Shown here: positions 7,510-47,610 of the stretch, one piece after another
How positions within the stretch are numbered: position 1 is the first letter of the stretch
Layout of the letters: the number at the start of each line of letters is the position of its first letter
Source of the DNA: an uncultured Bacteroidales bacterium
GTDB lineage: Bacteria; Bacteroidota; Bacteroidia; Bacteroidales; UBA932
Reading direction: 5' to 3'
Assembly (NCBI GenBank): GCA_944325505.1
Contig: CALVAJ010000014.1
Location: 1-48,764 of the forward strand
Length of the DNA stretch: 48,764 nt
The notes under the pieces: model-generated
Databases searched by the model: none
What the model was told of the DNA's origin: nothing
Seen by the model: only the letters and a program-made list of their open reading frames with translations
Position numbers and translations under genes: made by a program

Positions 7510-7525
7510 TTTATGTCGTGTCAGG

Positions 7526-25400: not shown

Positions 25401-25695
25401 GGTAGCCGAGATATGAGAATACAAGAGGGGCATCGGCGTAAGGGAGCTCGATTGTGAATTTTCCGTCGAGGTCAGTGACGACACCCTGATTTTTCAGTCC
25501 TTTGATAAGGACGGCCACACCGATAAGCGGCTCCTTGGATGTCTGATCCAGGACCGTACCGGATACTGTCACTTTGCCGGGCTGCTCTGCCGGAGCGGAT
25601 TCAGGTCGTGTTTCTGCAGCACCATAGACCGGTATTCCGGCTGATAAAGCCACGGAGACAGCTGTCAGGCAAATAGTTTTTACCAGATTTATCAT
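22450..25695 (-). CDS. SusC-like TonB-dependent outer-membrane transporter
   Basis: This is the outer-membrane channel that imports glycan fragments using TonB energy. The 1081-residue protein has a signal peptide and an N-terminal carboxypeptidase-regulatory-like domain (VSGTVLDQTSKEPLIGVAVLIKG, about 43-120 as a domain). A TonB-box region (REVVVVGYSTQRKE near 128) and a plug domain (AGRLPGLIVNQ, FIRGKSTYGD, IVIVDGIERD, YGIRGANGVIVITTKRG) follow. The rest is a 22-strand-type barrel, ending in phenylalanine (FNFGIDITF), a normal barrel end. It lies between the GH76 gene and susD. A role in mannan uptake is inferred from the enzymes around it. Confidence 0.94.
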   Translation of the reverse strand: MINLVKTICLTAVSVALSAGIPVYGAAETRPESAPAEQPGKVTVSGTVLDQTSKEPLIGVAVLIKGLKNQGVVTDLDGKFTIELPYADAPLVFSYLGYQPKEIVPGGRDNLTILLAEDSQALREVVVVGYSTQRKETMIGSVATITTKELAQSPAANINNALAGRLPGLIVNQYAGGEPGVDQSEIFIRGKSTYGDQGAIVIVDGIERDMSYLAPDEIETFTILKDASATAAYGIRGANGVIVITTKRGKAAEKATVNLKASVGINQPIGFPEYLGSADYAMLYNEARTNDALMTGAEVSSLNLFSDEAIANFRRAKGDNSDGLGYNWDYYDFAFKPGVQEDVSLSIRGGTDKVRYYVLANFFNQGGNYKYTNAGPYNSQSRFTRYNFRSNVDIDISKYLTARLDLGARITNRNAPGTTAGRLMTIAATQPPYLPILVEENSHPQNEEYISQNPLGMLYGDNVYRYNILGELSRTGYLNEKNTYLNGSFSMNLDMGFLTEGLSANLLFSYDASEGRWINRRLDTYKDGYREYPSYATFMPIGGSDVYMEGGHYSGAYKTGNKFEIDQTLGNGFTHNASDGRTYLQARIDYHRTFNEKHEVTAMLLANRGNRTVNNEIAYHSQGLTGRLAYYFSGKYLFEFNFGYNGSENFAPGKRYGFFPAGSIGWVISDENFVRDNASWINFLKIRASYGLVGSDAVSSRFPYLAFYGGGSGYDFGNNFGSNVGGTAEGNLANENLTWEKARKLNVGLDFTTLSDRLSLNVDFFHEYRYDIITDMTSEGIMGYPDVVGKDAALQNLGIVTNRGVDIEISWSDRIGRNFSYYIRPNLTFARNRLEYKAEVARKNPWRRETGKRLYENYVYVFDHFVSDQNEADRLNAIGYQPWGTLIPGDVVYKDLDRNGVIDDEDRAAMGNPRSPELMFGIPVGIQWKNLDFSLLFQGAALTSILLNGAAVYDFPQFDQDKIGKVKKMHLQRWTPETASTAKYPALHYGTHDNNKNSNSSLFLYDASYIRLKNVEIGFSLPQKWMQKLKMQKARIYFQGLNLLTFDKLEDVDIDPETKSGDGASWYPIQKVFNFGIDITF

Positions 25696-25719: not shown

Positions 25720-27117
25720 CTAATTTTCCGGATTGAATTCAGGTCCGGTCCAGTTTTCGGATTCGCTTTCCCTGCCCTGGACCCAGTCTTCGTACCGTGC
25801 CCGGATTTCTATCGCGGTGGCACCCGGCACTTCTGCATTGAGTTCTATCGTAAGGCGGTCGGGATTGTCGTTACGGTTTCCGAAGTCAGGAGCCGATGAC
25901 CAGCTGTATTCCCATACATACCAGCCTTCCGGATGGGCAAGAGACCACATTACATCGGTGCAGCTGCGGAGAGCCGCGATGAATTTTGACTTCGTGGACT
26001 CCGTATAGACATCATTTGTCGGCTGTTTCAGCATGTCGAGGAAGTAGCGGACGAAAATGCCCCTGAAAAGAAGGTTGTCTCCGCTGTTGCCCTCTCCGCT
26101 GAAAACCGGATAGTCCGAATCCATCTTCCTGTTTACCTGATAGGAAGCGAATGAAACGGCGTTCCGCAGATACTCGTCCTCTCCGGTCGCGTTGTAGAGG
26201 GCCAGGGCCGAAGCCATGAATGTACCCTGATTGTAAGAGAGGGCCACCTGGTCCGGAGTGCCGATCGTACCGTCGCTGTTGATGCCGAGGTTGTCATAGA
26301 CCTGTCCTGTGGATGTATCGCAGAGGTATGAGGTCATCCAGCTGTAGACTTCCTTGGCGAAGTTCAGGTAATATTCCGCCTGTGCCTCCCAGCCTTCCTT
26401 TGCCTCCCTGACCGTCAGCTGGTACAGCTTCATGGCAAGCAGACAGCCAGGGCCGTTCGAGCAGGACATCCTTGATGCCGGAGCATCTGTCTTCCATGCC
26501 ATGCCGCCGACACCCATATAGTTGTTCTTCGCCTCCTTGATATGGTTCCACATCTTCATCAGGGCATCATAGTAGTCCGTATCCCCGGTCAGTTCGTACA
26601 CACGGAGGCAGGCCAGTGCCATCCACTCCATATCATCGTAGAAGTTGTTCCAGAAATTGTCACCGCCGTAGCCGCAGGTCCTGTTCCACTCGTCGAACGC
26701 AGGCAGGAACGGTATCATGATGTCATTATAGATCTGAGCCTGCAGCTCAGGATCATCGGAATGCCTTAAATAATAATCCGTTACAATATCCAAGGCATGT
26801 CCCTGAGACCATCCTCCGCTGCCGTCGGCGCTTGACGGCTCTCCTGTCTGCGGTGTATTCGGTTTCTCCCACCAGATACTGCCGCCGAAAGTGTCCCGGC
26901 CGCCGGCATTTTCAAAGAAATATTTGATGTAGGTCTCTGTACTCAGGTCGGCCGCCTCGGTCCAGTCCACGTCCGAAACGTATTCGCCTGACGGATCGCC
27001 TCTGTAGATATCATCGATATCGCCGTTGTCGCAGGATACTGCAGCGGCTGCCGCAACAAAGGACCCTGCTGCAATAAAGAACGGGTGAAGTATCAAATCT
27101 TTTTTCATCTTATTCAT
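25720..27117 (-). CDS. GH76 endo-alpha-1,6-mannanase, lipoprotein
   Basis: GH76 enzymes cut the alpha-1,6-mannose backbone of fungal and related mannans. The protein begins with a lipoprotein signal (SFVAAAAAVSCDNGD), so it probably sits on the cell surface or in the periplasm. The catalytic pair is Asp161-Asp162 in NFYDDMEWMALACLR, the mark of this (alpha/alpha)6-barrel family. Other family blocks are GGWSQGHALDI, GVGGMAWKTDAP and VALSYNQGTFMASALALYNAT. At 465 residues it is of normal size. Its start overlaps the stop of the SusE-like gene (ATGA), suggesting translational coupling; an ATG nine bases further on (27108) is an alternative. Confidence 0.9.
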   Translation of the reverse strand: MNKMKKDLILHPFFIAAGSFVAAAAAVSCDNGDIDDIYRGDPSGEYVSDVDWTEAADLSTETYIKYFFENAGGRDTFGGSIWWEKPNTPQTGEPSSADGSGGWSQGHALDIVTDYYLRHSDDPELQAQIYNDIMIPFLPAFDEWNRTCGYGGDNFWNNFYDDMEWMALACLRVYELTGDTDYYDALMKMWNHIKEAKNNYMGVGGMAWKTDAPASRMSCSNGPGCLLAMKLYQLTVREAKEGWEAQAEYYLNFAKEVYSWMTSYLCDTSTGQVYDNLGINSDGTIGTPDQVALSYNQGTFMASALALYNATGEDEYLRNAVSFASYQVNRKMDSDYPVFSGEGNSGDNLLFRGIFVRYFLDMLKQPTNDVYTESTKSKFIAALRSCTDVMWSLAHPEGWYVWEYSWSSAPDFGNRNDNPDRLTIELNAEVPGATAIEIRARYEDWVQGRESESENWTGPEFNPEN

Positions 27118-28358
27118 TCATTTACAGTATTTTCTGTACCGGAGGCCGTCCACCTGTGGGTGTAGACTCCGAATTCCGCATTAAAATACAGGGTAACATC
27201 GGTCTTTACCGTTGCAAGCCACACTCCGTTCTGTTCGTCGCCCCACTGGAGCAGCTCATCGTTGTACCTGAAACTGTAGTCCCAGGAATCTGTCCCGAGG
27301 GCAAGCTGATAGAGGTTATAGTAGCTGTCGTCGGTAGTCAGGTTCGGGCTTCCCTCGTCCCGGCCTCTGTTGCCCCAGCGGTATTCCGTCCCGTCGATGA
27401 CCATCTTGAAACTGTGACGGGTCTCGCCCGAGCCTGCCCAGCTTTCCCTCTGTTTGCGGGCCGTGTAGTCCTTGATACCCCAACATCCTTTGCCGAGATA
27501 CTCGAAATCCTGTCTGTACGAACCGGAAACATTGAAAAGGAAGACATCGCCGATGGTCTCATACCTGACAGTCTGGTCACCCATGTTCACGGTAATACGG
27601 TAGATACCTGACTGAGGCACAGTAGTGGTGTTCTCTTCACCTTCATTTCTCTGGCGGAGCACTCCGTTTTCATTTACATAGTACCAGCATTTCGTGCCGG
27701 AGACTGTTGCCGTAAAGACGAACGGCTGATCTGCTTTCAGTCTGGTAAAGGTCTGGTAGATACCCTCGCCCTGACGCAGCATCTGCTGAGCCTGGGATTC
27801 GTCACCGTTATCTTCGGTCCCGATACCTGTAATATAGACAGGTTCGTTTTCTGCCGGAATATCATCGATTCCGTCCATCATGAATATCGAGAACCATCCT
27901 TCCACGCTGCTCATCGCTTCATCGAGGCCGCAGTAGGCACGGACTTTCCAGCGGAGGATACCTTCGGTGTTGCTGCGGAAACCGGCAAGCCTTCCGATGG
28001 TATTCAGCTGATAATGGGTGAGGGTCAGAGTGGTTTCAATACCGTTGTTGTCAGAAAAGGAGGTTTCCACAGGAGAGGAAAAGTCACCGTCTTCCGTATC
28101 TATCAGGACTTCATAACGGTAGACGGTATTTCCGTGCGGCTCTGTCGGAGTCCAGGAAAGAACGACATCCGTCAGAGAACCTTCAGAGAGAACTACCCGT
28201 TCTCCGCTTGCCATCGTATCAAGGGTGCGGACAGGATCGGGTGGTACAATAGGTTCATAGTCACCCTCGTCAAAGCCGGGATTGACCACATTTTCGCAGG
28301 ATACCGCCGCCAAAAGGCTAATGGACAGCATCGCTGCAGTCAGTCTGCTAAAATTCAT
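27114..28358 (-). CDS. SusE/SusF-like outer-membrane glycan-binding lipoprotein
   Basis: This 414-residue lipoprotein (signal MNFSRLTAAMLSISLLAAVSC) looks like a surface starch-binding-type accessory protein. An N-terminal SusE-like fibronectin fold (about 40-160: LSWTPTEPHGNTVYRYEVLID, then LRWKVRAYCGL) is followed by two or three beta-rich modules (VYITGIGTEDNG, then FLFNVSGSYRQDFEYLGKG, near 180-410). Such proteins help capture glycan beside SusC/SusD. It follows the first lipoprotein of the operon by 26 bases and overlaps the GH76 start by four bases. The target, probably mannan, is inferred from context. Confidence 0.78.
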   Translation of the reverse strand: MNFSRLTAAMLSISLLAAVSCENVVNPGFDEGDYEPIVPPDPVRTLDTMASGERVVLSEGSLTDVVLSWTPTEPHGNTVYRYEVLIDTEDGDFSSPVETSFSDNNGIETTLTLTHYQLNTIGRLAGFRSNTEGILRWKVRAYCGLDEAMSSVEGWFSIFMMDGIDDIPAENEPVYITGIGTEDNGDESQAQQMLRQGEGIYQTFTRLKADQPFVFTATVSGTKCWYYVNENGVLRQRNEGEENTTTVPQSGIYRITVNMGDQTVRYETIGDVFLFNVSGSYRQDFEYLGKGCWGIKDYTARKQRESWAGSGETRHSFKMVIDGTEYRWGNRGRDEGSPNLTTDDSYYNLYQLALGTDSWDYSFRYNDELLQWGDEQNGVWLATVKTDVTLYFNAEFGVYTHRWTASGTENTVNE

Positions 28359-28384: not shown

Positions 28385-30349
28385 TCAATATGAATGAGGA
28401 CATTCTACGGGTCTGTACTGTCCGTTGAACGGAGTTTGGGAGATAGATGAGGTATTGTTGTATACGATACCGTTGAGACCTTCTCCGACATATCCGTAGT
28501 TCGGGAACATGTCTAAGCCGACTGTCCCTTCCGAAGGTACCCAGTATCCTGCAAGACCTTCTTTCTCTGCAGCTTCTTCAGGGGTGTAATATGTGCACAT
28601 GTCAGCCTTGATCTGCTCTTCGGTCCTCGCGACTGTCCACATGCGGGCCTGGGCGATGGCACAGTAACCGAGCCTGTACTCGCTGTTTCCTGAGCGTCCT
28701 ATCATAAGGGCTTCATCTCCAGCTACTGAAGACAGTACGAGATACGGGTCCGGAGAAACATTGGCATAGTCTTCCGAAGCCGGGGTCAGCTCCTCGCGCA
28801 CTCCGTTGATATACATTTTGTAAGCCTCTTTTGTGCTGGACTGTGTGCCATCGAAGACGATGGCAATATGATACCATTGGGCATTCCCCTGACGGTCATT
28901 TCCCATCTTCTGCTGGCTTCTGAACCGAGGGTCGTTATAGGTGTCTCCGGAGAGATTGGCTGGATCCTTATGTATTTTTGTCGCTATTTCAAAGCGAAGA
29001 TCCGTGTCACCGTTGTTCTCACATCTCAAAAGGAATACTCCTTCAAGTCCTATGAAAGATTGGAGAGCCCTCGAATATGTCGGCCAGAAGACCATTTCGA
29101 AAGTCAGCTGCTGCTGATGGTCGAAGTCCGGATGGCTTTCTATGTATTCCCTGATACCCATCCTGAAACAATAGTCGGAACTGAGTTCCGCTGCCACCGG
29201 AGCGACTGTCACAGGGACATCAAGAGACTGTCCCGCCTCATCGGTAATGGTCAGTTCCGTGGTGCCGAACCATTTCGCTTTCACGACGAGGTTGTCATTT
29301 TTGTCTATTTCAGCCGACTCTATGTATTTGCTGTTTTCTTCAGTGAGCGGAGAAAGTGTGTATCCTCCGTTCCCGCGTGCGATGGCTACCGAAAGTGTGT
29401 TAGCAAACCCATTGACAGTCAGTGATGTAGGGTTGCCTTCCAGCTGCAGTTCATACGGGTTCACCGTCACCGCTATGGTCTCGGACGAGCCTTTCTGGTC
29501 TGTCACTATTACATTTACGTTCCCTCTTGACATCGGTTCTATTGTAATCATGTTGCCGGATACGGAGGCTTCCACGATGTCCGAAGTCTCGGTAGGTTCG
29601 CTATCACCGGTACTGTATTCTATTGCATAGTTCCCGTTGCCTTGTTCTATGGCGATATATTGGGCCTCCGCATCAGGAGCGGAGAATACCGCCTCGTTTT
29701 CGGCAAGCATCAGATCCACTATATTCACCCTTACAGGGAAAGCCACGGTTTTTCCTTCGCTGTCGGTCAATGTCAGCTGTACAGGTGTATCACCGGTTTC
29801 TAAAAGACCTGTCAGAGTGAATGTCTGTCCTGTTATCTCGCCGATTTCCACGAAGTCTCCGGCACCTTCAGTTGCCGAAATCCCATATCCTCCGTTTCCA
29901 GTCAGGATTTTCACGGTACGGGTCTCGCCTATGAACAGATCGATGCCCTCTTCTGACGGTACATCTACAGTCAGATCCCAGAGCCTGGCCACAAGGACTT
30001 CTACTCTGGCGACTTTCTTCCTCCCGTCGAGGACGAGAACCGTAGTCTTCAGGATGTCATCTTCGCCAAGCTGGCTGTTTTCCACCGCATGAATGGTCAC
30101 GGCGGTACCGTTTACTGTTGCCGTAACCACACTTTCATCGAAAGATCTCACGGAATAGTCTCCGTTTCCGGAAGTGATGTTCACTGTGATGTCATGTCCC
30201 TGGACCAATGTAACCGAATCGTTGTCCAGAACAAGACTTGCCGCTTCCCCGGTATTTTCAACGCCGGTTTCTTCCGTACACGATGTCAGTGTCATGGACA
30301 TTGGAAGAAACATAGCCTGGGTAAGCAGCAGGAGTAGTTTCTTTTTCAT
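28385..30349 (-). CDS. Surface lipoprotein with four GNGxY Ig-like repeats and a LamG-type domain
   Basis: This is the first gene of the susCD operon and a likely surface glycan-binding protein. It has a lipoprotein signal (MTLTSCTEETG). Four Ig-like repeats follow, each with the same turn: SGNGDYSV, TGNGGYGI, QGNGNYAI and RGNGGYTL. These span about 40-410. The C-terminal LamG-like fold (about 415-600) has LTFEMVFWP, WYHIAIVFDGT, YKMYINGVREEL and QARMWTVARTEEQI. The protein of 654 residues is a longer paralogue of the last gene in the operon (18916-20484). The repeats would hold the binding domain away from the membrane. Ligand unknown; mannan is inferred. Confidence 0.8.
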   Translation of the reverse strand: MKKKLLLLLTQAMFLPMSMTLTSCTEETGVENTGEAASLVLDNDSVTLVQGHDITVNITSGNGDYSVRSFDESVVTATVNGTAVTIHAVENSQLGEDDILKTTVLVLDGRKKVARVEVLVARLWDLTVDVPSEEGIDLFIGETRTVKILTGNGGYGISATEGAGDFVEIGEITGQTFTLTGLLETGDTPVQLTLTDSEGKTVAFPVRVNIVDLMLAENEAVFSAPDAEAQYIAIEQGNGNYAIEYSTGDSEPTETSDIVEASVSGNMITIEPMSRGNVNVIVTDQKGSSETIAVTVNPYELQLEGNPTSLTVNGFANTLSVAIARGNGGYTLSPLTEENSKYIESAEIDKNDNLVVKAKWFGTTELTITDEAGQSLDVPVTVAPVAAELSSDYCFRMGIREYIESHPDFDHQQQLTFEMVFWPTYSRALQSFIGLEGVFLLRCENNGDTDLRFEIATKIHKDPANLSGDTYNDPRFRSQQKMGNDRQGNAQWYHIAIVFDGTQSSTKEAYKMYINGVREELTPASEDYANVSPDPYLVLSSVAGDEALMIGRSGNSEYRLGYCAIAQARMWTVARTEEQIKADMCTYYTPEEAAEKEGLAGYWVPSEGTVGLDMFPNYGYVGEGLNGIVYNNTSSISQTPFNGQYRPVECPHSY

Positions 30350-30409: not shown

Positions 30410-30417
30410 CAAAAGTA
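30410..30417 (-). promoter_or_regulatory. Candidate -7 promoter element of the susCD operon
   Basis: TACTTTTG on the minus strand lies about 60 bases upstream of the first gene of the operon (start 30349). No good -33 TTG is found upstream of it. This is common for promoters that need an activator, which would fit control by the AraC-type regulator encoded just upstream. The gap 30350-30489 holds nothing else I recognise. Confidence 0.4.
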
Positions 30418-30489
30418 GAGAGTTTGAAAATACGTTTTACTCCGGTCCAGGTCCGTGTTTTTCGATTGGCACAGAATTAAACTATATTA

Positions 30490-33400
30490 TCACATATCTT
30501 TACTTTTTCCTTTGGCTGATTTGTGCATGCTGTCGAGGTATGCGGTACGGTATTCCTTTGGCGTGCAGCCGTACTTTTCCTTGAAGGCCTTGAAGAAGGT
30601 GACCTTGTTGGTGAAGCCGGAGGCGAAAACGATCTCATCGATGGTCTTCTGTGTGGTCTGCAACATGTTTTTCGCGACATGCAGACGGCTCGAACGTATC
30701 AGTCCGGTCAGGTTCTCCCCGCCCATGGCTTCCATTTTACGGTACAGGCTTCTCGTACTGATGGCAAGGGCATCAGCGATGAAATGCGGCGACAGGTTCT
30801 TGTCCGTGATATTGTCATTTATGATTTTCAGCACTTTCTGGAGGAATTTTCTGGATTCCTTGTGGGTGAGTTTGCCTTCTGTCTTTTCGTACGAGCTGAT
30901 AGGGGAGCTGAAATAGTCTTTCAGGTCTTCCTTGCGCCGGATCAGCTGCCGGACGGAAGCTTTCAGGAAGTCCGCGCTGAACGGCTTGGTGACATATAGC
31001 TGGGCCCCTGCAGACAAGGCTTCTATCTGCTGTTCGGTTTCATATTTCCCTGATATGATAATCACAGGAATATGCGCTGTTTCTTTCGAGGATTTGACAG
31101 TATTGATCACTCCTATTCCGCCTGTCACCGGTATGTCAGAGTCACAGATGATTACGCTCGGGTAGATTTCGCCGAGCAGCTGCTCCAGACCCGAAGTGTC
31201 CTGCAGTGTCATGACATTGAATTCCTTAGAGAAAATGCCGCCGATGAACCAGAGCATTTCCACTTCATCGTCCATCACCAGTACGGTAGGGCGCATCTCG
31301 TCGAATTCATAATGAGGCAGCGATACCGGACTTGAATCCATTGCAGGGATGTATCCGGTATCAGTCCAGACTGCGGGCTTTATCACATGCTCCGTGTCTA
31401 TATGGGGAAGTGACATGGTAAAGTTTACTGTTCCGGTCGTGGATTTCCCTGCTTCAAGCCTTCCTCCGAGAAGCTGTACCATGGACCTCGCTATCGACAT
31501 ACCCAGACCGGAGCGGTTGAACGCGGTCCCGGATGTATTCCCGATACTGTCAAGAGCCGTGTATCTGTTGAAAAGGCCGTCCAGTTCCTCTTCACGTATG
31601 TCACATGCCGTACAGGAGAGAGTCAGTACCAGTTCTCCGCGCTCTGTCAAAGATATTCCGAGACTTACTCTCTGCTTAGGCAGAGTGTGCCGGAACGCAT
31701 ATGTCGTCAGGTTGATGAGCACTACATTTATAAATGCCTTGTCCGAATTGATTTCGATTTTGTCTGGTACTGTACAGTCGAAAGCGATTCCCCTGCTTTT
31801 GGCCGCTTCTCCGAATGCCGGGGACATATCCTTGATCAGAGCGGAAACATCCACCTTTTCTATACGCGGAGTCCTGTGCCCTGTCTCTATATGCCTGAAT
31901 TCCACCAGTTCGTGTATCAGGTTGTCAAGGCGGCTGGCATTGGTCTGAATCATTTTCGCATACCCGGATACATCCGGCGTCAGGCTCCTGTCTGAGAGAA
32001 TCTGGCCGCAAGAACCGTATATCAGCGTCAGAGGTGTACTGAATTCACTTGCGACATCAGTGAAGAAACGCAGTTTTGACTCGAAAATTTCTTCCTTGTG
32101 CCTGGCTTCCAGCTCATCGAGCATCTTCTGCTTGCGTGCCTTGTGTCTCTGGACTTCCGTCCTGATGACGAGCGCCGCGACCGCGGAAATGCACATGACA
32201 TAGAGAATATATGCCCACCAGGACGTATACCACGGTCCGGCAATGTGTATTTTCATGGAATAGACATCGCTGTCCAGATCGAATACACTGTTGTGGTACT
32301 TCACCTGAAGCGTGTATTCCCCGGGAGCAATGCCGGTAAACGGTATCTCATGCTTGTGTCCGTTGTTTATCCATTGCTCACCGGATTCTTTAAGTCTGTA
32401 ATAATAGGTACAGTTGTTTCCGTTGATGTAGTCTACGGCAGTAAAGGATACGGAAAAGAAATTCTGGCCGTGGTCAAGATCCAGGACCTGTGCGTAATCT
32501 TTTCCTGAACTTTTCCGGGACAGGTGCTCTGACAGGACCGCTTTTTCACCGAGGATGGACAACCCGTCAAAATATACGGGCGGCATATAAGGATGCTCCT
32601 GCCTGCCGTCAGCCGAGACCGATGCGAAACCGTTTATCCCACCGAAATAAAGGGTTCCGTCGGTTCTGTCGTAAAATGCCGCACCGTCACTGAATTCGAC
32701 CACATCGAGTCCGTCATTGAAACCATAGGTCCTGAAAGAATCATCCCGCGAGTTGAAATTCACCAGGCCGAGGTTCGTGCTAAGCCAGAAATCATCGGGA
32801 CCGGATTTCAGAATGGCATGAACGGTACTGTTCGGGAAGCCGTTCCGGGTATTGAACAGAGTGTATTCAGTGTCGCTGTCATACCTGACAAGCCCGTAGC
32901 TCGTACCCTGAAGCCAGCGCCCGGAACTGTCCCGGCTGATATCGAGGATACTGTTCAGTGTCACATTGTCGAATTTTATATCTGACAGCGGTTCTATCCC
33001 GTCGGAAGAAGGGTTGTAGCGGAATGCTCCATAGCCTTTGTTTGCAAAAAGCACCAGACTGTCGCTTTCTGCGTAAATGCTGAAAAAATAGTTGGAGCCC
33101 ATATCACCGTTGTTTATGACGTACCGTTTCGCTCCTGTAAGTACAGGCGCATCGTCCGGTCCGGAGATTTTGGCTCGCACTACTCCCATGCCGACGCTTG
33201 CCAGCCAGATTTCCCCGTCCGAAGTCTCGTAGACATCGTGTATGTATTTGAAATCCACGCCGTCCACCTGCACCGGGACCCGGACGATTTTCCTGTCGCG
33301 GTAGGACCAGCAGCACAGCCCTTCTTCTTCTCCTATCCAGAGAATCGGCCGCGAACTCTCTGCGAAACAATATACAGCATTGCTTCGCAGTCCGGATGCG

Positions 33401-34554
33401 GATGCCGTCAGCGTTTCTTTCGAAGATTTCGCCGGATTTTTTTCCGGACTGTAGTCGAATATCTTGAAAATGCCGTTCCCCTTCGTTGCTATCCACATGG
33501 TCCTGTCGTCATCTATATGAACCGCCCTTACAGGTCTCTGTATATTGTCTTCATATCTGCTCAGTTCGACAGACCGTATCGAATACAAGGGTTCCGAATA
33601 TATGTAGACACCCTGTCCGTCAGTCCCTATCCATACTATATCCTGGAAAAGGTCCTTTTTCAGGCAGAATACTCCGCTGTTTATCGGCAATGGGGAGATT
33701 TCATATCTGTTCCCGGCTTTTTCCACCATGAGGAGTCCGTCCATGAGAAATCCGACAAAGAAACTGTCGTGATGTCTGACAATGGAAGATATCTTTCCGC
33801 GCCTGTCCATCTCGTCTCCGAGCCATGCGATCCTCTCAGTTTCTCCCGTACTTATTTCATAGGAATACAGATATTTGTCTTCATCTATATATGATATGTA
33901 TTCTCCGTCGCTGTAGCAGTTGACCAATGGAGAATTATGTGACATCAGGCTTTCCTGAGGCAGAAGTGTGATCCCGTTCTCTGACTGAAGTATCCTGAAA
34001 CACTTGCTGTAACCCTGCATCACCACCCACATCATGTTGTCCTTGTCTACGAAGAAGCACAGCACATCCGATATCGGGATGCCTGTGAGGGTGATTTTCA
34101 CAAATATGCCTTTGATCTCATCGTAATGGTATACGCTGTTGCTGTCGTTTAGTACGAAAAAATTTCCGTTCCGGTCGCTTGCCATAAAGAAAAGTTTCTG
34201 GAACTGGTTGAAATGCGTGATGGAGCCGGTATCGAAATCGAATCTGTTCAGTCCGTAATAGGTCTGGATCCAGCATATCCTGTCAGAGGAATTTACTATA
34301 TTGTCAATAAGGTTTCCGGACAGGTAATCCGGACCTTCTGAAATCCGGTACTCCATTATTTGCTGCCCGTCATAGACATTGAGTCCGTCGCAGGTCCCTA
34401 TCCACATAAGACCACGGCTGTCCTGACACATCGAAGTAATGGAACTGTTGGTCATGTATTCCTTGTCGGAAATCTGTTTGAGGTTATAAGAATAAAGATT
34501 GAAAATCAGCGGGTTAAGCGTAATCAAAAGCGCCAGGATACAAAGCCTTTTCAT
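30490..34554 (-). CDS. Hybrid two-component regulator with degenerate kinase core
   Basis: Regulators of this type sense glycan fragments in the periplasm and activate the neighbouring locus. Order: N-terminal signal/anchor (1-22); two seven-bladed Reg_prop-type propellers (about 25-660, repeats such as DSRGLMWIGT and DGEIWLASVGMG); Y_Y_Y domain (about 700-770); membrane segment (about 775-800); dimerisation/phosphoacceptor region (about 825-890); ATPase-like domain (about 930-1050); receiver (about 1090-1205); AraC DNA-binding domain (about 1240-1354). The phosphoacceptor block reads FFTDVASEFSTPLTLI, with Ser836 where these kinases have histidine. The N-box reads INLTTYAFRHT and the D-x-G-x-G box is lost (CTACDIREEEL), though a GLG remains. 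The receiver retains MDDE, Asp1138 (CDSDIP) and Lys1190 (TKPF). It lies between, and probably controls, the susCD operon and the GH92/GH130 genes. Signalling without its own kinase activity is an inference. Confidence 0.9.
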   Translation of the reverse strand: MKRLCILALLITLNPLIFNLYSYNLKQISDKEYMTNSSITSMCQDSRGLMWIGTCDGLNVYDGQQIMEYRISEGPDYLSGNLIDNIVNSSDRICWIQTYYGLNRFDFDTGSITHFNQFQKLFFMASDRNGNFFVLNDSNSVYHYDEIKGIFVKITLTGIPISDVLCFFVDKDNMMWVVMQGYSKCFRILQSENGITLLPQESLMSHNSPLVNCYSDGEYISYIDEDKYLYSYEISTGETERIAWLGDEMDRRGKISSIVRHHDSFFVGFLMDGLLMVEKAGNRYEISPLPINSGVFCLKKDLFQDIVWIGTDGQGVYIYSEPLYSIRSVELSRYEDNIQRPVRAVHIDDDRTMWIATKGNGIFKIFDYSPEKNPAKSSKETLTASASGLRSNAVYCFAESSRPILWIGEEEGLCCWSYRDRKIVRVPVQVDGVDFKYIHDVYETSDGEIWLASVGMGVVRAKISGPDDAPVLTGAKRYVINNGDMGSNYFFSIYAESDSLVLFANKGYGAFRYNPSSDGIEPLSDIKFDNVTLNSILDISRDSSGRWLQGTSYGLVRYDSDTEYTLFNTRNGFPNSTVHAILKSGPDDFWLSTNLGLVNFNSRDDSFRTYGFNDGLDVVEFSDGAAFYDRTDGTLYFGGINGFASVSADGRQEHPYMPPVYFDGLSILGEKAVLSEHLSRKSSGKDYAQVLDLDHGQNFFSVSFTAVDYINGNNCTYYYRLKESGEQWINNGHKHEIPFTGIAPGEYTLQVKYHNSVFDLDSDVYSMKIHIAGPWYTSWWAYILYVMCISAVAALVIRTEVQRHKARKQKMLDELEARHKEEIFESKLRFFTDVASEFSTPLTLIYGSCGQILSDRSLTPDVSGYAKMIQTNASRLDNLIHELVEFRHIETGHRTPRIEKVDVSALIKDMSPAFGEAAKSRGIAFDCTVPDKIEINSDKAFINVVLINLTTYAFRHTLPKQRVSLGISLTERGELVLTLSCTACDIREEELDGLFNRYTALDSIGNTSGTAFNRSGLGMSIARSMVQLLGGRLEAGKSTTGTVNFTMSLPHIDTEHVIKPAVWTDTGYIPAMDSSPVSLPHYEFDEMRPTVLVMDDEVEMLWFIGGIFSKEFNVMTLQDTSGLEQLLGEIYPSVIICDSDIPVTGGIGVINTVKSSKETAHIPVIIISGKYETEQQIEALSAGAQLYVTKPFSADFLKASVRQLIRRKEDLKDYFSSPISSYEKTEGKLTHKESRKFLQKVLKIINDNITDKNLSPHFIADALAISTRSLYRKMEAMGGENLTGLIRSSRLHVAKNMLQTTQKTIDEIVFASGFTNKVTFFKAFKEKYGCTPKEYRTAYLDSMHKSAKGKSKDM

Positions 34555-34603: not shown

Positions 34604-34719
34604 TATTCTGTGATTTGGAGAGGCCAGGATTGTTGTTAATCTCCGCGCCATTGTAGTATAATATCGCGCCAACGGACCCGGCGGTCGGACGGAGCCTGAA
34701 GAACAGTCCGTTTTCATTA

Positions 34720-34727
34720 TATATTTG
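34720..34727 (+). promoter_or_regulatory. Candidate -7 promoter element of the GH92/GH130 operon
   Basis: TATATTTG at 34720-34727 fits the -7 consensus and lies about 70 bases before the first GH92 start. The -33 position has no TTG, again compatible with activator dependence. The gap between the regulator and GH92 (34555-34795) holds nothing else that I recognise. Confidence 0.4.
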
Positions 34728-34795: not shown

Positions 34796-37075
34796 ATGAA
34801 CAGATACCTGCGTTTATCATTACTCGTACCGGTGTTCGCCGTCCTGCCGGCATATGCCGCGGACGGACCGGTCGACTATGTAAGTACACTTGTCGGTACG
34901 GACTCCAGGTTTGAACTTTCCACCGGCAATACCTACCCGGCTACTGCGCTTCCATGGGGGATGAATGCCTGGACCCCACAGACAGGAAGGATGGGTGACG
35001 GATGGACATACTGCTATGACGCGGAGAAAATCCGGGGCTTCAAACAGACACACCAGCCAAGTCCGTGGATGAACGACTACGGGCAGTTTTCCGTCATGCC
35101 CGCTACCGGAAAGGTGGTTTTCGACCAGGACATGAGGGCAAGCTGGTTCTCCCACAAGGCCGAGACCGCAAAGCCGTACTATTACAGGACATACCTTGCC
35201 GACCACGATGTGACAGTGGAGCTTGCACCTACGGAAAGGGCCGCATGCTTCCGGCTCACATATCCGGCTTCGGACAGTTCGTATGTGATCATCGATGCCT
35301 TTGACCGGGGTTCATATATTAAGGTGATACCTCAGGAAAGAAAGATAGTCGGATATACCACCAAAAACAGCGGCGGTGTCCCTGAAAATTTCAGGAACTG
35401 GTTCGTGGCTGTCTTCGACAAGCCTTTCGACTTTGTCAGGACGGTCAGGGACGGCAAGATTCTCGAAGGTGTAACGGAAGTACAGTGCGACCATGCCGGT
35501 GCCATAGCCGGATTTTCCACTGTATCGGGTGAAACCGTGCACATGCGTGTAGCATCTTCATTCATAAGCCTTGAGCAGGCAGAAAGGAACCTGCTGGAAA
35601 TAGGAGACAGGACTTTCGATGAAGTGGCGGCTGCGGGGAAGGACATCTGGAACGACGTGCTCGGCCGGATAGAAATCGAAGACGGGGATATCGATAATCT
35701 CAGGACATTCTATTCATGCCTGTACAGATGCCTGCTGTTCCCAAGGGCTTTCTACGAAACGGATGCGGAAGGGAAAACAGTACACTACAGTCCGTACAAC
35801 GGGGAAATCAGGGAAGGGTATCTGTTCACCGATACAGGATTCTGGGATACATTCCGCAGTCTTTTCCCTCTGATCAACCTCGTGTATCCGTCCATGGGAG
35901 AAAAGATGCAGGAAGGATTGGTAAATGCCTATCTTGAAAGCGGCTTCCTTCCCGAATGGTCAAGCCCTGGACACAGGGACATCATGGTCGGCAACAATTC
36001 CGCTTCCGTAGTGGCTGATGCATACGTCAAGGGGCTGCGCGGCTATGACATCGAGACTCTTTGGGAGGCTCTCGTCCATGGTGCGAATGACTGGCTTGAA
36101 GGTACGGCATCCGGGCGCAAAGGCTATGAATGGTACAACAGGCTCGGTTATATCCCCGACAATGTCGGTATCGGCCAGAATGTGGCACGCACACTCGAAT
36201 ACGCCTACAACGACTGGACTATCTATACTCTCGGAAAGAAACTCGGCAAGCCGGAAAGCGAGATAAGGGTATATGTCGACCGGGCGCTCAACTACAGGAA
36301 TGTCTACAACCCTGACAGAAAACTTATGTGTGGAAAGAATGACCGTGGTGTATTTGACCCGGATTTCGATCCGGCAGACTGGAGCGGGGCTTTCTGCGAA
36401 GGCAACAGCTGGCACTGGAGCTTCTGCGTTTTCCATGACCCTAAGGGACTGATGGACCTGATGGGCGGGAAAGAGGAACTGAATGCCATGATGGACTCCG
36501 TATTTGTATTGCCGGGAAAACTCGGACTGGAAAGCCGCGGCATCATCCATGAGATGCGTGAAATGCAGATAATGGATATGGGCCAGTACGCCCACGGCAA
36601 CCAGCCGATCCAGCACATGGTCTACCTGTATAACTATACAGGACAGCCTTGGAAAGCGCAGTACCGGGTCCGCGAAATCATGGACAAGCTGTATTCCGCC
36701 ACTCCTGACGGATATTGCGGAGACGAGGACAACGGACAGACCTCCGCATGGTATGTATTCTCCGCCCTCGGTTTCTATCCAGTGTGTCCCGGAACTGATC
36801 AGTATATCATCGGTTCTCCGCTTTTCAAGTCAGCAAGAATCCAGCTTGAAAACGGAAAGACCGTGACTGTTTCTGCAGAAAACAACGGTGTGTCGAACCG
36901 GTATATAAGTTCCATGCGTCTCAACGGAAAACCATACGGGAAAAACTATATGACCCACACGGACCTGCTCAAAGGGGCTAAGATAGTCTTCCGTATGTCC
37001 GGCACACCGGAATACGGGCGGGGGACATCAGAGGAAGCTGCTCCATATTCATTTTCAGACACAATAACCGAGTAA
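34796..37075 (+). CDS. GH92 exo-alpha-mannosidase (first copy)
   Basis: GH92 enzymes are calcium-dependent exo-acting alpha-mannosidases that invert configuration. The 759-residue protein has a signal peptide (MNRYLRLSLLVPVFAVLPAYAA), so it works in the periplasm. Family blocks are GNTYPATALPWGMNAWTPQT and GFKQTHQPSPWMNDYGQF in the N-terminal beta domain. The helical barrel has TGFWDTFRSLFPL, EWSSPGHRDIMVGNNSAS, FCEGNSWHWSF, YAHGNQPIQHMVYLYNYTG and EDNGQTSAWYVFSALGFYPVCPG. All look intact. It differs from the second GH92 (38210-40474) throughout, so the two probably take different linkages, for example alpha-1,2 and alpha-1,3. It heads a plus-strand operon that also holds the GH130 gene. Confidence 0.93.
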   Translation: MNRYLRLSLLVPVFAVLPAYAADGPVDYVSTLVGTDSRFELSTGNTYPATALPWGMNAWTPQTGRMGDGWTYCYDAEKIRGFKQTHQPSPWMNDYGQFSVMPATGKVVFDQDMRASWFSHKAETAKPYYYRTYLADHDVTVELAPTERAACFRLTYPASDSSYVIIDAFDRGSYIKVIPQERKIVGYTTKNSGGVPENFRNWFVAVFDKPFDFVRTVRDGKILEGVTEVQCDHAGAIAGFSTVSGETVHMRVASSFISLEQAERNLLEIGDRTFDEVAAAGKDIWNDVLGRIEIEDGDIDNLRTFYSCLYRCLLFPRAFYETDAEGKTVHYSPYNGEIREGYLFTDTGFWDTFRSLFPLINLVYPSMGEKMQEGLVNAYLESGFLPEWSSPGHRDIMVGNNSASVVADAYVKGLRGYDIETLWEALVHGANDWLEGTASGRKGYEWYNRLGYIPDNVGIGQNVARTLEYAYNDWTIYTLGKKLGKPESEIRVYVDRALNYRNVYNPDRKLMCGKNDRGVFDPDFDPADWSGAFCEGNSWHWSFCVFHDPKGLMDLMGGKEELNAMMDSVFVLPGKLGLESRGIIHEMREMQIMDMGQYAHGNQPIQHMVYLYNYTGQPWKAQYRVREIMDKLYSATPDGYCGDEDNGQTSAWYVFSALGFYPVCPGTDQYIIGSPLFKSARIQLENGKTVTVSAENNGVSNRYISSMRLNGKPYGKNYMTHTDLLKGAKIVFRMSGTPEYGRGTSEEAAPYSFSDTITE

Positions 37076-37088: not shown

Positions 37089-38201
37089 ATGAAAACAAGA
37101 AAATTTTTTCTTGCCGCGATGTGCTGTGCCGCAATATGCTGCGCATGTAAAAACGAATCCGGGGACGGGCTGCCAGACTGGGCAATCGGGGAATTTTCCC
37201 GTCCTGAAGGAGTCAACCCGGTAATATCTCCGGACAGCCAGACAAGATTCTGGTGCCCTATGGTAAAAGATTCCGTCGACTGGGAGTCCAATGACACCTT
37301 TAATCCGGCAGCAACGGTACATGACGGGAAAGTCGTGGTCATCTACCGTGCCGAAGACAGGTCCGGCACTGGCATCGGCCACAGGACATCCAGGCTCGGA
37401 TACGCAGTAGCTGAAGACGGACTGCACTTCGTCCGGGACAGGCAGCCAGTGCTGTATCCGGCCGAAGATTCCTGCAAGGAATACGAATGGCCCGGCGGCT
37501 GCGAAGACCCGAGAATCGCCATGACCGAAGACGGCCTGTATGTGATGTTCTACACCCAGTGGAACAGACAGATACCGCGACTTGCCGTCGCCACTTCGAG
37601 GGATCTGAAGAACTGGACAAAGCATGGTCCTGTCTTCGCAGATGCCTGTGATGGAAAATTCAGGGACATGGCTTGCAAATCAGCTTCAATCCTTACCGAA
37701 ATCAAAGACGGGAAACAGACAATCAGGAAAATCGACGGGCATTACTTCATGTACTGGGGTGAAGAAAACGTCCATGCAGCGACATCTGACGACCTCATCA
37801 GATGGACACCTGTCATGAATTCGGACGGGTCGGTCAGGAAACTGTTTTCACCTCGGGACGGCTATTTCGACAGCCAGCTCACGGAATGCGGCCCGCCGGC
37901 AATCTATACCCGGAACGGGATTGTGCTCCTTTACAACGGAAAAAACTCCGCTTCGCGCGGCGATACTGCTTACACGGCGAATGTATATGCTGCCGGTCAG
38001 GCATTGTTCGATGCTGAAGACCCTCTGAAGTTTATCACCAGACTTGACAAGCCGTTCTTCGTTCCGACTGAAGCATTCGAGAAAAGCGGACAGTACAAGG
38101 ACGGGACGGTGTTCATAGAAGGTATGGCCTGGTTCAATGGGAAGTGGTTTCTGTATTACGGCTGCGCCGATTCAAAGGTAGGGGTTGCCATTTCAAAATA
38201 A
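37089..38201 (+). CDS. GH130 beta-mannoside hydrolase or phosphorylase, lipoprotein
   Basis: GH130 proteins act on beta-mannosides; some are phosphorylases, and those of yeast-mannan loci are beta-1,2-mannosidases that remove capping mannose. The protein of 370 residues has a five-bladed propeller pattern with the family signature GGCEDPRI, followed by YVMFYTQWNRQIPRLAVATS and YMYWGEENVHAATSDDLIRW. Its signal (FFLAAMCCAAICCACKNES) predicts an exported lipoprotein. Export favours hydrolysis over phosphorolysis, but this is inference. It lies 13 bases after the first GH92 and 8 bases before the second, so it belongs to the mannan-degrading operon. Confidence 0.85.
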   Translation: MKTRKFFLAAMCCAAICCACKNESGDGLPDWAIGEFSRPEGVNPVISPDSQTRFWCPMVKDSVDWESNDTFNPAATVHDGKVVVIYRAEDRSGTGIGHRTSRLGYAVAEDGLHFVRDRQPVLYPAEDSCKEYEWPGGCEDPRIAMTEDGLYVMFYTQWNRQIPRLAVATSRDLKNWTKHGPVFADACDGKFRDMACKSASILTEIKDGKQTIRKIDGHYFMYWGEENVHAATSDDLIRWTPVMNSDGSVRKLFSPRDGYFDSQLTECGPPAIYTRNGIVLLYNGKNSASRGDTAYTANVYAAGQALFDAEDPLKFITRLDKPFFVPTEAFEKSGQYKDGTVFIEGMAWFNGKWFLYYGCADSKVGVAISK

Positions 38202-38209
38202 AATACGGT

Positions 38210-40474
38210 ATGAAAATCAATGTATTAGGGACAGTGATCCTGTCCGTTTTTATGGCAGCCGCAGCGGCTGCACATGGACGTGATTATTCAAAAAGCGAAG
38301 GCCTGCTGCAGTATGTCGACCCGTATATCGGGTCCGGAGGTCATGGGCACGTATTTGTCGGGACCAGTGTGCCTTACGGAATGGTACAGCTCGGTCCGAG
38401 CAATATCCATAAAGGCTGGGACTGGTGCTCTGCCTACCATTACAGCGACAGCGTCCTCATCGGCTTCTCGCATACCCATCTGAGCGGGACCGGATGCACG
38501 GACCTGGGGGACATACTCGTTATGCCTCTGAACGAAATCCGGACTCCACGGGGAAACCAGGATGATTTCGAGGGAGGATATGCCTCCCTATATTCTCATG
38601 ATACCGAAATCGCCCGGCCTGAATACTATTCTGTCATGGTAGAACGCTATGGAATCAAAGCCGAACTTACTTCTACCGACAGGACCGGATTCCATCGCTA
38701 TACCTACCCTGCAGGAAAGCCTGCGTCGCTCCTGATAGATCTCCGTGAGGGCAACGGGGCCAACGCCTGGGAAAGCTACATCAGGAAAATCGATGACTAC
38801 ACCGTGGAAGGCTACAGGTATGTCAGAGGCTGGAGTCCGTCCAGAAGAGTGTATTTCGTCCTTAAAAGCGATACCCCGATAGTCTCCTTTACGGCCTATG
38901 ACGACAATGATCCCCAGCCTGGAAACCAGCTCAGGACCGCTTCAGTAAAGAGTGTCCTCGGTTTCGGAAATGTCAGTCAGGTAAGAATCAAGGTGGCCCT
39001 TTCCTCCGTCAGCTGCGAGAATGCCGCGATGAACCTCGAGGCGGAACTCCCGCACTGGAATTTTGACAGGGTAGTGGATGAAAACGCTGACAGGTGGAAC
39101 CGGCTGCTCCAGAAAATGACCGTATATACCGATGATGAAAAATCCATGAGAATTTTCTATACGGCTCTGTACCATACCATGATAGCCCCTACATTGTACT
39201 GTGACGTAAACGGAGAATACCGGGGAATGGACGACATGATCTATACAGACCCGGAGGTATCCAATTATACCACCCTTTCCCTGTGGGATACCTACCGGAC
39301 TCTGCATCCGCTTATGACCATCATTTCTCCGGAAATGGTTGACAGGACTGTCAGATCGATGATTTCCATATACCGTCAGCAGGACAAGCTCCCGATATGG
39401 CCGCTGATGAGCGGTGAGACGAACCAGATGCCTGGGTACAGCTCGGTCCCGGTCATAGCGGATGCTTATCTGAAAGGTTTTGACGGATTCGATGCCGAAG
39501 AAGCCTTCACCGCGATGAAAGCCACTGCCACATACAGGCATCAGAAAGGGGTCCCGTATATAATGGAGAAAGGCTACATTCCTGCGGACAAGATCCATGA
39601 AGCCACTTCCATAGCTCTGGAATACGCCGTTGATGACTGGGGTATAGCCGCCATGGCAGAAAAGATGGGGAAAACCGATGATGCGGCGGTATTCTCGGCA
39701 AGAGCCGGATACTACAGGAATTATTTCGACAGTTCCATCGGGTTTATCCGGCCTAAATTGGATGACGGCACATGGCGTACCCCATATGATCCGGCCAGGT
39801 CCATACACACTGTCGGGGATTTCTGTGAAGGGAACGGCTGGCAGTACACCTTTTTCGTTCCTCAGGATCCTTACGGCCTGATATCTATGTTCGGTGGAGA
39901 CAAGGCATTCACTGACAGACTCGACAGCTTTTTCACCAATACTGACAGTATGGGAGACGCTCCATCCAGCGACATTACCGGACTTATAGGCCAGTACGCC
40001 CACGGCAATGAGCCGAGCCACCATATCGCCTATCTCTATGCATATGCCGGAGAGCAATGGAAAACCGCTGAAAAGGTCCGTTTCATTATGGATGAGTTCT
40101 ATACAGATGCCCCTGACGGACTTATCGGAAACGAAGACTGCGGACAGATGTCCGCCTGGTATCTGATGTCTGCATTAGGATTCTACCAGGTGAACCCGTC
40201 TGACGGGATTTTCGTATTCGGAAGTCCGAAATTCAGAAAAGTGGAAATGAAGGTGCGCGGAGGCAATACCTTTGTCGTCGAAGCACTGGACAACAGCCCG
40301 GAGAACATCTATATCAGAAAGGTGTATCTGAACGGCAAACCGTATGCGAAAAGCTATATCACCTACCAGGATATCATCAAAGGAGGTACTCTGACTTTCG
40401 AAATGGGGAAGAAACCTGACAGGAAATTCGGTACTGCACCGGAAAACCGACCTGCAGTAACACAGGTTTTCTGA
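38210..40474 (+). CDS. GH92 exo-alpha-mannosidase (second copy)
   Basis: This is a second exported alpha-mannosidase of family GH92. I chose the ATG at 38210, which gives a signal peptide (MKINVLGTVILSVFMAAAAAAHG); the open frame goes back to 38144, inside the GH130 gene. Family blocks include VDPYIGSGGHGHVFVG, GFSHTHLSGTGCTDLGD, LSLWDTYRTLHPL, MPGYSSVPVIADAYLKG, FCEGNGWQYTFFVPQD, YAHGNEPSHHIAYLYAYAG and EDCGQMSAWYLMSALGFYQVNP. The form GFSHTHLSGTG is the commoner GH92 variant, unlike GFKQTHQPSPW in the first copy. At 754 residues it is complete. It is the last gene of the operon, followed by a long hairpin. Confidence 0.94.
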   Translation: MKINVLGTVILSVFMAAAAAAHGRDYSKSEGLLQYVDPYIGSGGHGHVFVGTSVPYGMVQLGPSNIHKGWDWCSAYHYSDSVLIGFSHTHLSGTGCTDLGDILVMPLNEIRTPRGNQDDFEGGYASLYSHDTEIARPEYYSVMVERYGIKAELTSTDRTGFHRYTYPAGKPASLLIDLREGNGANAWESYIRKIDDYTVEGYRYVRGWSPSRRVYFVLKSDTPIVSFTAYDDNDPQPGNQLRTASVKSVLGFGNVSQVRIKVALSSVSCENAAMNLEAELPHWNFDRVVDENADRWNRLLQKMTVYTDDEKSMRIFYTALYHTMIAPTLYCDVNGEYRGMDDMIYTDPEVSNYTTLSLWDTYRTLHPLMTIISPEMVDRTVRSMISIYRQQDKLPIWPLMSGETNQMPGYSSVPVIADAYLKGFDGFDAEEAFTAMKATATYRHQKGVPYIMEKGYIPADKIHEATSIALEYAVDDWGIAAMAEKMGKTDDAAVFSARAGYYRNYFDSSIGFIRPKLDDGTWRTPYDPARSIHTVGDFCEGNGWQYTFFVPQDPYGLISMFGGDKAFTDRLDSFFTNTDSMGDAPSSDITGLIGQYAHGNEPSHHIAYLYAYAGEQWKTAEKVRFIMDEFYTDAPDGLIGNEDCGQMSAWYLMSALGFYQVNPSDGIFVFGSPKFRKVEMKVRGGNTFVVEALDNSPENIYIRKVYLNGKPYAKSYITYQDIIKGGTLTFEMGKKPDRKFGTAPENRPAVTQVF

Positions 40475-45520: not shown

Positions 45521-45559
45521 CCGTCTGCCGGTTTGAAAATTTAATCAATATTGTCATAA

Positions 45560-47602: not shown

Positions 47603-47610
47603 TCACTGCG

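Follow-up and report, generated by a model that had tools for sequence, protein, structure and literature searches.

The hybrid two-component system (HTCS) gene on the minus strand of the analysed stretch of DNA (48,764 nucleotides, from an uncultured Bacteroidales bacterium; hereafter the window) encodes a regulator whose kinase, to judge from its motifs, is catalytically dead. We give about an even chance to the reading that this kinase has been kept dead and that the protein acts as a membrane-tethered activator driven by the conformation of its sensor. Phosphorylation of the receiver is most likely either optional or supplied from elsewhere.

Domain architecture and state of the kinase

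The features of the gene are as follows.

30490..34554, minus: HTCS gene with a degenerate kinase, 1354 amino acids, no internal stop
32185..34485, minus: periplasmic propeller and Y_Y_Y sensor, residues 24-790 (Pfam Reg_prop and Y_Y_Y)
31879..32097, minus: DHp (HisKA) domain with the histidine replaced, residues 820-892 (Pfam)
32047..32049, minus: Ser836 codon AGT at the phosphoacceptor position (alignment; His in relatives)
31390..31878, minus: CA (HATPase) domain, fast-evolving, residues 893-1055
31699..31701, minus: Tyr952 codon TAT, replacing the second N-box Asn (alignment)
31600..31614, minus: degenerate G1 box CTACD, residues 981-985, aligned to NTGKG of L061
30940..31293, minus: receiver domain with intact phosphorylation site, residues 1088-1205
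31141..31143, minus: Asp1138, the receiver phosphoacceptor (alignment)
31066..31077, minus: AHIP in place of the S/CHIP contact motif between receiver and DNA-binding domain (REC-DBD), residues 1160-1163 (motif from PMC11253607, excerpt)
30853..30855, minus: Ser1234 at the Asp position of the contact motif (motif from PMC11253607, excerpt)
30544..30780, minus: AraC-type DNA-binding domain HTH_18, residues 1259-1337 (Pfam)

Matches to Reg_prop, Y_Y_Y, HisKA, HATPase_c, Response_reg and HTH_18 were all above the Pfam cut-offs, and the protein is an HTCS by its architecture, i.e., a sensor, HisKA, HATPase_c, receiver and AraC domain in a single chain. The HisKA match (residues 827-892) scored 30.0 bits against a cut-off of 26.9, and those to HATPase_c, Response_reg and HTH_18 spanned residues 938-1050, 1091-1201 and 1259-1337, respectively. 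The sensor boundaries (residues 24-790) were set for the domain-by-domain comparison given below.

The phosphoacceptor histidine and the ATP-binding N and G1 boxes of a working phosphorelay are all altered. Besides Ser836, the N-box reads NLTTYAF, in which the first asparagine (Asn948) is retained and Tyr952 occupies the position of the second, which we take to be a metal-binding residue; the G1 box is CTACD, against NTGKG in the Dysgonomonas orthologue (L061), and the G2 box G-L-G is retained. The original prediction was right about the serine and the tyrosine and, as far as G1 is concerned, about a lost glycine box, as well as about the open frame over 1354 codons and the whole AraC domain; its coordinates for the gene stand, with the strand corrected to minus. 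The residues of a phosphorelay receiver (D1095, D1096, D1138, S1168 and K1190) are all present. Asp1138 and Lys1190 had been described as an acidic pair; both exist, but they are the acceptor and the conserved lysine, and the acidic pair is D1095/D1096. The S/CHIP-DK lock motif of the REC-DBD contact is absent, with AHIP, Ser1234 and K1273 in the corresponding places.

The AF2 model of the kinase, from a two-row alignment, has a histidine-kinase fold (pLDDT 75.7, pTM 0.75), with HK853 and CpxA as top PDB matches and the pseudokinase DivL at rank 27. With its histidine replaced and its fold taken from this predicted model, the domain can be placed among the pseudo-histidine kinases. The AF2 model of REC-DBD is weak for domain arrangement (pTM 0.51).

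Operators and the mannan locus

The following features flank the gene.

34635..34672, plus: operator 1, 17-bp units with a 21-bp period, upstream of GH92-GH130-GH92
34720..34727, plus: promoter element TATATTTG, 47 bp after operator 1
34796..37075, plus: GH92, putative alpha-mannosidase
37089..38201, plus: GH130, NCBIfam BetMansidBT3780 beta-1,2-mannosidase
38144..40474, plus: second GH92
30466..30503, minus: operator 2, the same direct repeat, upstream of the LamG-like, SusE, GH76 and SusC/D genes
30410..30417, minus: promoter element TACTTTTG, 48 bp after operator 2
28385..30349, minus: putative surface glycan-binding protein (LamG 27.1 against a Pfam cut-off of 27.6, just under)
27114..28358, minus: SusE-like protein
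25720..27117, minus: GH76, putative alpha-1,6-mannanase
22450..25695, minus: SusC-like TonB-dependent receptor (Plug domain)
20509..22443, minus: SusD-like lipoprotein

Control of the mannan locus had been proposed from gene position, and this is strengthened by a predicted operator common to both flanking promoters. By sequence it has the form of an HTCS operator, i.e., a direct repeat with a period of about 21 bp at the controlled promoters, and it was present in both flanking promoters in 5/5 loci of the clade described below. Both operators of the window precede a TAnnTTTG element, by 47 and 48 bp; these elements, TATATTTG and TACTTTTG, are presumably -7-type promoter elements. The motifs of mannan HTCSs have been described as a pair of 16-bp sites 5 bp apart (PMC3878776, excerpt).

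The exact operator core occurred in the 2.36-Mb draft host genome only at the two flanking sites. With exact matches only, one of the two flanking sites was found in each of G366, G138 and G227; the scan of G049 matched neither, and its single match lay elsewhere. The reversed-core control matched once in each of G366, G227 and G049 and nowhere in G000. Three similar repeats lie at the locus of a Dysgonomonas orthologue with an intact kinase.

Conservation of the kinase loss

Four orthologues with 63-81% identity, at the same mannan locus, were found in the genus. The clade loci (the window, L038, L039, L040 and L009) represent four distinct members, L039 being a C-terminal copy of L040 that was left out of the alignments. 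The histidine was absent and the tyrosine present in 4/4 orthologues, i.e., in 5/5 loci including the window, and gene order was kept in 4/4 within the compared stretches, with one locus lacking GH130. The closest intact relatives, one of them from Dysgonomonas sp. 511, are 41-45% identical and retain His, Asn and NTGKG.

Because the histidine loss is common to all four orthologues, it is neither an error nor a recent mutation. The phosphoacceptor codon is CAT in L061 (the nearest intact relative), AAT in three orthologues, and AGT in the window and L038, and the path CAT to AAT to AGT requires a single base per step. Similarly, the N-box codon is AAT (Asn) in L061 and TAT or TAC (Tyr) in the window, L038, L039 and L040. 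Sequencing error or a fresh mutation is ruled out by the five loci and the codon path, and the five genomes and the two steps likewise exclude a histidine codon emerging on re-sequencing, which the original prediction had named as a refutation. Orthologues with the normal histidine, also named there, were found only among distant relatives (at most 45% identity), and so a single recent mutation is not thereby shown. What is conserved is the loss of histidine together with the tyrosine, but not the serine itself, which is Asn in three orthologues.

The whole-gene dN/dS against the 81% orthologue was about 0.10 (NG86; dS about 1.1). By domain it was 0.08 for the sensor, 0.04 for DHp, 0.06 for REC, 0.11 for HTH and 0.26 for CA, and the DHp domains of the two proteins are 88% identical. 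Among pairs with 60-87% sensor identity, CA minus sensor identity averaged -16.7 in the kinase-dead clade (6 pairs, -21.8 to -8.7) and +7.7 in intact HTCSs (19 pairs, -2.5 to +22.3). On these comparisons the ATPase domain is relaxed in the clade, and the DHp helices, the receiver and the DNA-binding domain are constrained. The view that the gene looks selected is thus upheld by the loss in all the orthologues found, the low dN/dS, and the conserved locus and operator.

Repeated kinase loss across HTCSs

Kinase death appears to have occurred in at least four lineages on our trees, all of which came from 'quick' searches on sensor columns. A single loss for all dead HTCSs was rejected on the 35-row tree (AU p about 1e-5), in a test that excludes a single origin only and whose group was named after the first tree was seen. 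The His label must change 3 times on the 35-row tree and 4 times on each of the larger trees, of 72 and 82 rows; L043 retains His within the branch in which kinase and receiver are both dead, and a further tree, of 31 rows, brought in lineage D (L211-L213). L138 (sensor only) and the copies L139 and L110 were left out, as was L124 (short sensor) from the trees.

One kinase-dead lineage is also without the receiver site, and in this other large dead group the acceptor Asp and/or Lys was lost in 19/19 kinase-dead rows. For example, L002, a second His-less HTCS in the same genome as the window, has a dead receiver (Glu for Asp, Leu for Lys); the same genome also carries the intact HTCSs L003 and L004. 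In another lineage, erosion appears to have gone as far as L214 (start cut), an apparent fusion whose sensor is joined directly to the AraC domain, with kinase and receiver missing within the frame. The AraC domain persists in other lineages without kinase and receiver.

Further HTCSs of the genus had His, Asn, Asp and Lys in 59/59, which is no frequency estimate, since these were chosen among places with a match spanning the kinase to the AraC domain, a choice that favours intact genes, and the short-match places were degenerate. L210, chosen for its early-stopping match, was degenerate, and each of L211-L214 proved degenerate in both kinase and receiver; L213 and L210 are one and the same gene. 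Because relatives share the loss and losses recur in the family, the regulators of these kinase-dead clades probably work without a kinase of their own.

Possible modes of action

In the explanation favoured here, the window protein would act as an activator in the form of a membrane-tethered dimer. A glycan bound in the periplasm would shift the DHp helices, which would continue to keep the dimer together and probably serve to dock the receiver, and this shift would set the placement of the two DNA-binding domains on the repeat. With the REC-DBD contact, the lock of ordinary HTCSs, altered in this protein (AHIP, Ser for Asp), the DNA-binding domain would be released without any need for self-phosphorylation. 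Phosphate from elsewhere may still tune the output through the intact phosphorylation site.

A changed S/CHIP-DK contact makes DNA binding independent of phosphorylation (PMC11253607, excerpt). Such changes are common in intact relatives and therefore do not alone imply phosphate independence: 91/145 rows with His and Asn lacked the strict contact motif and kept the receiver site. The motif is retained in 2/24 dead rows (L045 and L074). Since AHIP without the Asp is found even in L061 and L111-L113, whose kinases are intact, the contact change seems earlier than the kinase loss there. Lock loss as the cause of kinase death is unsupported, most lock-less rows having an intact kinase.

It is possible, though on the whole unlikely, that phosphate arrives in trans from another kinase (an intact HTCS or an orphan) or from acetyl phosphate, with the pseudokinase only gating access to the receiver. 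The five receiver residues listed above are intact throughout the clade, whereas the other dead group lost Asp and/or Lys, and the intact site is no less compatible with a real phosphate input than with the conformational reading. Moreover, DHp, the domain to which receivers dock, ranks among the best conserved, L003 and L004 could be partners in the same genome, and DivL offers a pseudokinase that prefers DivK~P (PMC5361649, excerpt). However, no candidate partner kinase was found at the locus, and the invariance of 6/6 active-site residues in the four distinct clade members is only modestly improbable by chance at 60% invariance (71/118 over all receiver positions). The drift of the receiver also resembles that in the both-dead group, with REC minus sensor identity of +2.8 in the clade, +3.3 in the both-dead group and +7.7 in intact HTCSs, in overlapping ranges.

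A constitutive DNA binder, always on its operators as a repressor or basal activator and unresponsive to glycan, is improbable. Non-consensus HTCSs were predicted to be able to bind unphosphorylated, and BT2391 represses its own locus (PMC11253607, excerpt). Against this stands the strong constraint on the sensor (dN/dS 0.08). The position of the operators, 47-48 bp upstream of the presumed -7-type elements, is moreover typical of activators. Residual or altered kinase activity, in which Ser836 or another residue is phosphorylated or ATP is still turned over, would agree with the retained G2 box and fold, but the variable serine, the loss of both the N-box Asn and G1 and the relaxed CA domain make it very improbable. 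Decay of the gene or an assembly artefact might be suspected from the loss of several catalytic motifs, but is scarcely credible given the 1354-codon open frame, five genomes, low dN/dS and conserved operators.

Comparison with known systems

The window protein is similar to the alpha-mannan HTCSs of Bacteroides (HTCS_Man: BT2628, BT3302, BT3786) in its sensor propeller, its DHp-CA-REC-AraC order, its mannan locus with GH92, GH76 and BT3780-type GH130, and its operator units of about 16 bp with a 21-bp period (PMC3878776, excerpt), but is without the phosphoacceptor His, N-box Asn and G1 box. The BT3786 locus is pointed to by the GH130 equivalog only, and the likeness to BT3786 is by description, not sequence. 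These three proteins are among the HTCSs deviating from the REC-DBD motif (PMC11253607, excerpt).

BT4236 is likewise an HTCS without the histidine (Gln848), for which a phosphorylation-independent mechanism was suggested by its authors; it is, however, a single protein treated in one sentence, and the excerpt of that paper (PMC11253607) does not mention its N-box, G1, orthologues, or repeated or receiver loss. DivL and other pseudo-histidine kinases also keep the kinase fold with the histidine replaced, and the residue is missing from about 1% of the histidine kinases sequenced; DivL, however, responds to a receiver outside its own chain (DivK~P) and acts by modulating another kinase (PMC5361649, excerpt), whereas the window protein has its receiver and DNA-binding domain in the same chain. 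Aspartate-less receivers (PMC4395418, excerpt) resemble part of the both-dead group, e.g., L002, but not the window protein, which retains Asp and Lys.

In the literature searched, partly in excerpt and with most subscription papers outside the search, the only mention of His-less or kinase-less HTCSs was that of BT4236, and conserved clades, repeated losses or graded erosion were not found. A His-less HTCS is thus already known, and conserved kinase-dead clades, repeated losses and graded erosion are apparently unreported.

A possible path from two components to one

It is tentatively suggested, as a quite possible course of events, that mannan-type HTCSs in Bacteroidales have repeatedly been converted from two-component into one-component membrane regulators, with the window gene as a conserved intermediate. 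The REC-DBD lock would weaken and then the kinase die, with the receiver still alive, as in the window clade. The receiver phosphorylation site would be lost next (a 17-row branch, another family included), and DHp, ATPase and receiver would then pass beyond recognition (L211-L213). Finally, about 275 residues would be lost in frame, which would leave the sensor and membrane part directly continuous with the AraC domain (L214).

As switches of glycan use, HTCSs have a major role in gut Bacteroides, and they are usually assumed to act by phosphorelay; annotation by domain names would label the window protein a kinase. The clade without a working kinase, set against an intact orthologue with a similar operator, offers a natural test of whether phosphorylation is necessary for signalling from sensor to DNA. 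If the conversion occurred as suggested, the window gene would exemplify transmembrane signalling through shape alone, and the graded series, ending in a sensor-AraC fusion, would trace the change of a two-component system into a one-component one.

Window protein and its orthologues

The hybrid two-component regulator (HTCS) of the window reads as a single open frame and retains the complete HTCS order of Pfam domains (Reg_prop, Y_Y_Y, HisKA, HATPase_c, Response_reg and HTH_18), with a sequence-derived hydrophobic stretch between Y_Y_Y and HisKA.

34554 down to 30490, minus strand: HTCS gene, 1354 residues
34280-34317, minus strand: operator-like repeat, weaker (score 15.1), inside the HTCS coding sequence and close to the 5' end
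431-10388: genes for NuoF-like and [FeFe]-hydrogenase proteins, HydF and two radical-SAM proteins, followed by TauE and cation-efflux genes; seemingly unconnected with the mannan locus

The phosphoacceptor position is occupied by Ser836, the second N-box Asn is replaced by Tyr952 and the N-T-G-K-G site reads C-T-A-C-D, while the receiver keeps D1095, D1096, D1138, S1168 and K1190. The genus was sampled with 400 genomes, chosen evenly from a larger set and including that of the window; four others among them carried a protein 63-81% identical to the window protein over its full length (L038, L039, L040 and L009, with 99.7% identity between L039 and L040). Searching the order (393 genomes) and the family (199 genomes) recovered L039 again and no additional orthologue above 45%. 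His was absent from all four orthologues, where Asn (three) or Ser (one) replaced it, and Tyr stood at the N-box in every one. The closest relatives beyond this clade were all intact, i.e., L061/L110 (45%; L061 is from Dysgonomonas sp. 511), L111-L113 (41-43%) and L127-L131 (36-39%). The codons at the His position suggest a path from CAT (L061) through AAT (three sequences) to AGT (two).

Constraint by domain

Between the window protein and its 81% orthologue, identity was 83% in the sensor, 88% in the HisKA domain (DHp), 68% in the ATPase domain (CA), 88% in the receiver and 81% in the HTH domain; the corresponding values against L039 were 67, 79, 45, 67 and 74%. Domain-minus-sensor differences were compared over pairs with 60-87% sensor identity, which share sequences and hence are not independent. 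For CA the difference was -16.7 (-21.8 to -8.7) over the 6 pairs of the window clade, -13.2 (-25.2 to +3.3) over the 12 pairs of the group with both kinase and receiver site lost, and +7.7 (-2.5 to +22.3) over 19 pairs of intact HTCSs; the range of the clade lies apart from that of the intact proteins, whereas the both-dead range overlaps it. The receiver differences (+2.8, +3.3 and +7.7, respectively) had overlapping ranges. Based on these ranges, the ATPase domain of the window clade is freed from constraint, but its receiver is not clearly so.

Repeated loss and erosion of the kinase

On these trees, kinase losses occurred in at least four lineages. In a 72-row tree built from sensor columns alone, His-less proteins fell in three places: the window clade (A), sister to intact L061/L110; a 17-row branch (B), including L002 of the window's genome and L114 of another family; and L086 (C), sister to intact L125. 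A single clade for all His-less HTCSs was rejected on 35 rows. Receivers of branch B were also damaged, with Lys replaced by Leu or Phe in every row and Asp gone in some. L043, inside this branch, retains His with a dead receiver, which would reflect either a reversal or parallel loss in its relatives. L086 (genome G366, contig C100) has Asn for His and an N-box Tyr and retains the acceptor Asp and Lys; it shares its genome with orthologue L038, its kinase death being independent. An N-box Tyr is found repeatedly, namely in A, C and L114/L124. Overall, His or the N-box Asn was lost in 24 of 169 tabulated rows, and the receiver site too in 19 of these.

Two of the four HTCSs with receiver and AraC domain found in the window genome (L001-L004) are kinase-dead, i.e., the window protein and L002, and both adjoin GH76 genes. 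L002 (L068:11156-15130, contig C32), in which both kinase and receiver are dead, has Gln for His, Glu for Asp and Leu for Lys, and its neighbours are two GH76-like genes and SusC/D/E-like genes.

The fourth lineage (D; L211-L213) grouped with intact L115, L117 and L050 (6 rows, SH-aLRT 99), separate from A, B and C. DHp was not alignable in L211 and L212, and none was recognisable in L213. L211 and L213 had intact Pfam Reg_prop, Y_Y_Y and HTH_18 domains and no Pfam kinase domain; a Pfam receiver was missing from L211 and below the cut-off in L213. The graded series would reach complete kinase absence in L214 (3-2534, genome G028, contig C72), whose start is cut by the contig. It aligned in one frame, at 76-77% identity, first with residues 148-831 of L211 and next with 1106-1266; about 275 residues that once formed kinase and receiver are thus absent, and the sensor/membrane part runs directly into the AraC domain. 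This gap is seen on one contig of a draft genome and may be a misassembly. In the propeller regulators L211-L214, DHp, ATPase and receiver are barely recognisable. On contig C8 of the window's genome, a propeller frame of 818 aa and a nearby frame of 195 aa with an AraC-type match (about 45107-47841) are perhaps a split propeller regulator.

His-less histidine kinases are already known (about 1%; PMC5361649), and one published HTCS lacks the His. In the literature searched, mostly as listings, no conserved kinase-dead HTCS clade with measured ATPase-domain relaxation was found, nor HTCS kinase losses in multiple lineages or a graded series to kinase absence.

Locus and putative operator

With loci compared only to their fetched ends (L064 stops inside the LamG-like gene and L062 at GH76), the HTCS gene was flanked in all four orthologues by GH92(-GH130)-GH92 and by LamG-like, SusE, GH76 and SusC genes; GH130 was missing between the two GH92 genes in L062 (G366). 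The window GH130 is a BT3780-type beta-1,2-mannosidase (NCBIfam score 643.5 bits; cut-off 550).

Alignment of the two intergenic regions revealed one shared element of 17-bp units with a 21-bp period. In the mannan HTCS motif described in PMC3878776, two 16-bp sites are separated by a 5-bp spacer. The 17-bp units match each other at 10-13 of 17 positions and end in GYGCCAA (ACGCCAA at one G049 site), and the window operators end 47 and 48 bp ahead of TAnnTTTG elements. The pattern GTNNAATNNNGYGCCAA had exactly two window matches without mismatch, both at the operators; when one mismatch was allowed, shuffles gave 0.34 matches, with two reached in 6 of 100. Across the 2.36-Mb draft genome, the core GTNNAANNNNGYGCCAA occurred only at the two operator places and its reversed control had zero matches.

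The operator matrix was trained on the sites themselves, and their scores of 45-53 are therefore circular. On the Dysgonomonas locus it found three repeats (23.3, 16.7 and 15.5; next 0.4); the top score on 14 other non-orthologous loci was 10.9 (L145), and intact relatives L141-L144 scored 8.3, 6.3, 1.9 and 0.0. From these scores, a similar putative operator is present at one intact relative and not at the others scanned. The repeat inside the HTCS coding region, with weaker matches near the same place in orthologous loci (6.4 in L062; 2.0 in L063 and L064), may be a chance product of coding conservation.

Possible mode of action

In ordinary HTCSs, as described by Gao, Wu and Stock (PMC11253607), an S/CHIP-DK contact between receiver and DNA-binding domain silences the latter until the receiver is phosphorylated, and breaking it gives phosphate-independent binding; the same source suggests that BT4236, in which Gln replaces His, may act independently of phosphate. 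The contact motif of the window protein is AHIP, with Ser for Asp. AHIP also occurs in the intact relatives L061 and L111-L113, with His or Asn in place of Asp, so a weakened lock probably preceded the death of the kinase. The window protein may act as a conformational activator, its receiver perhaps being tuned from elsewhere.
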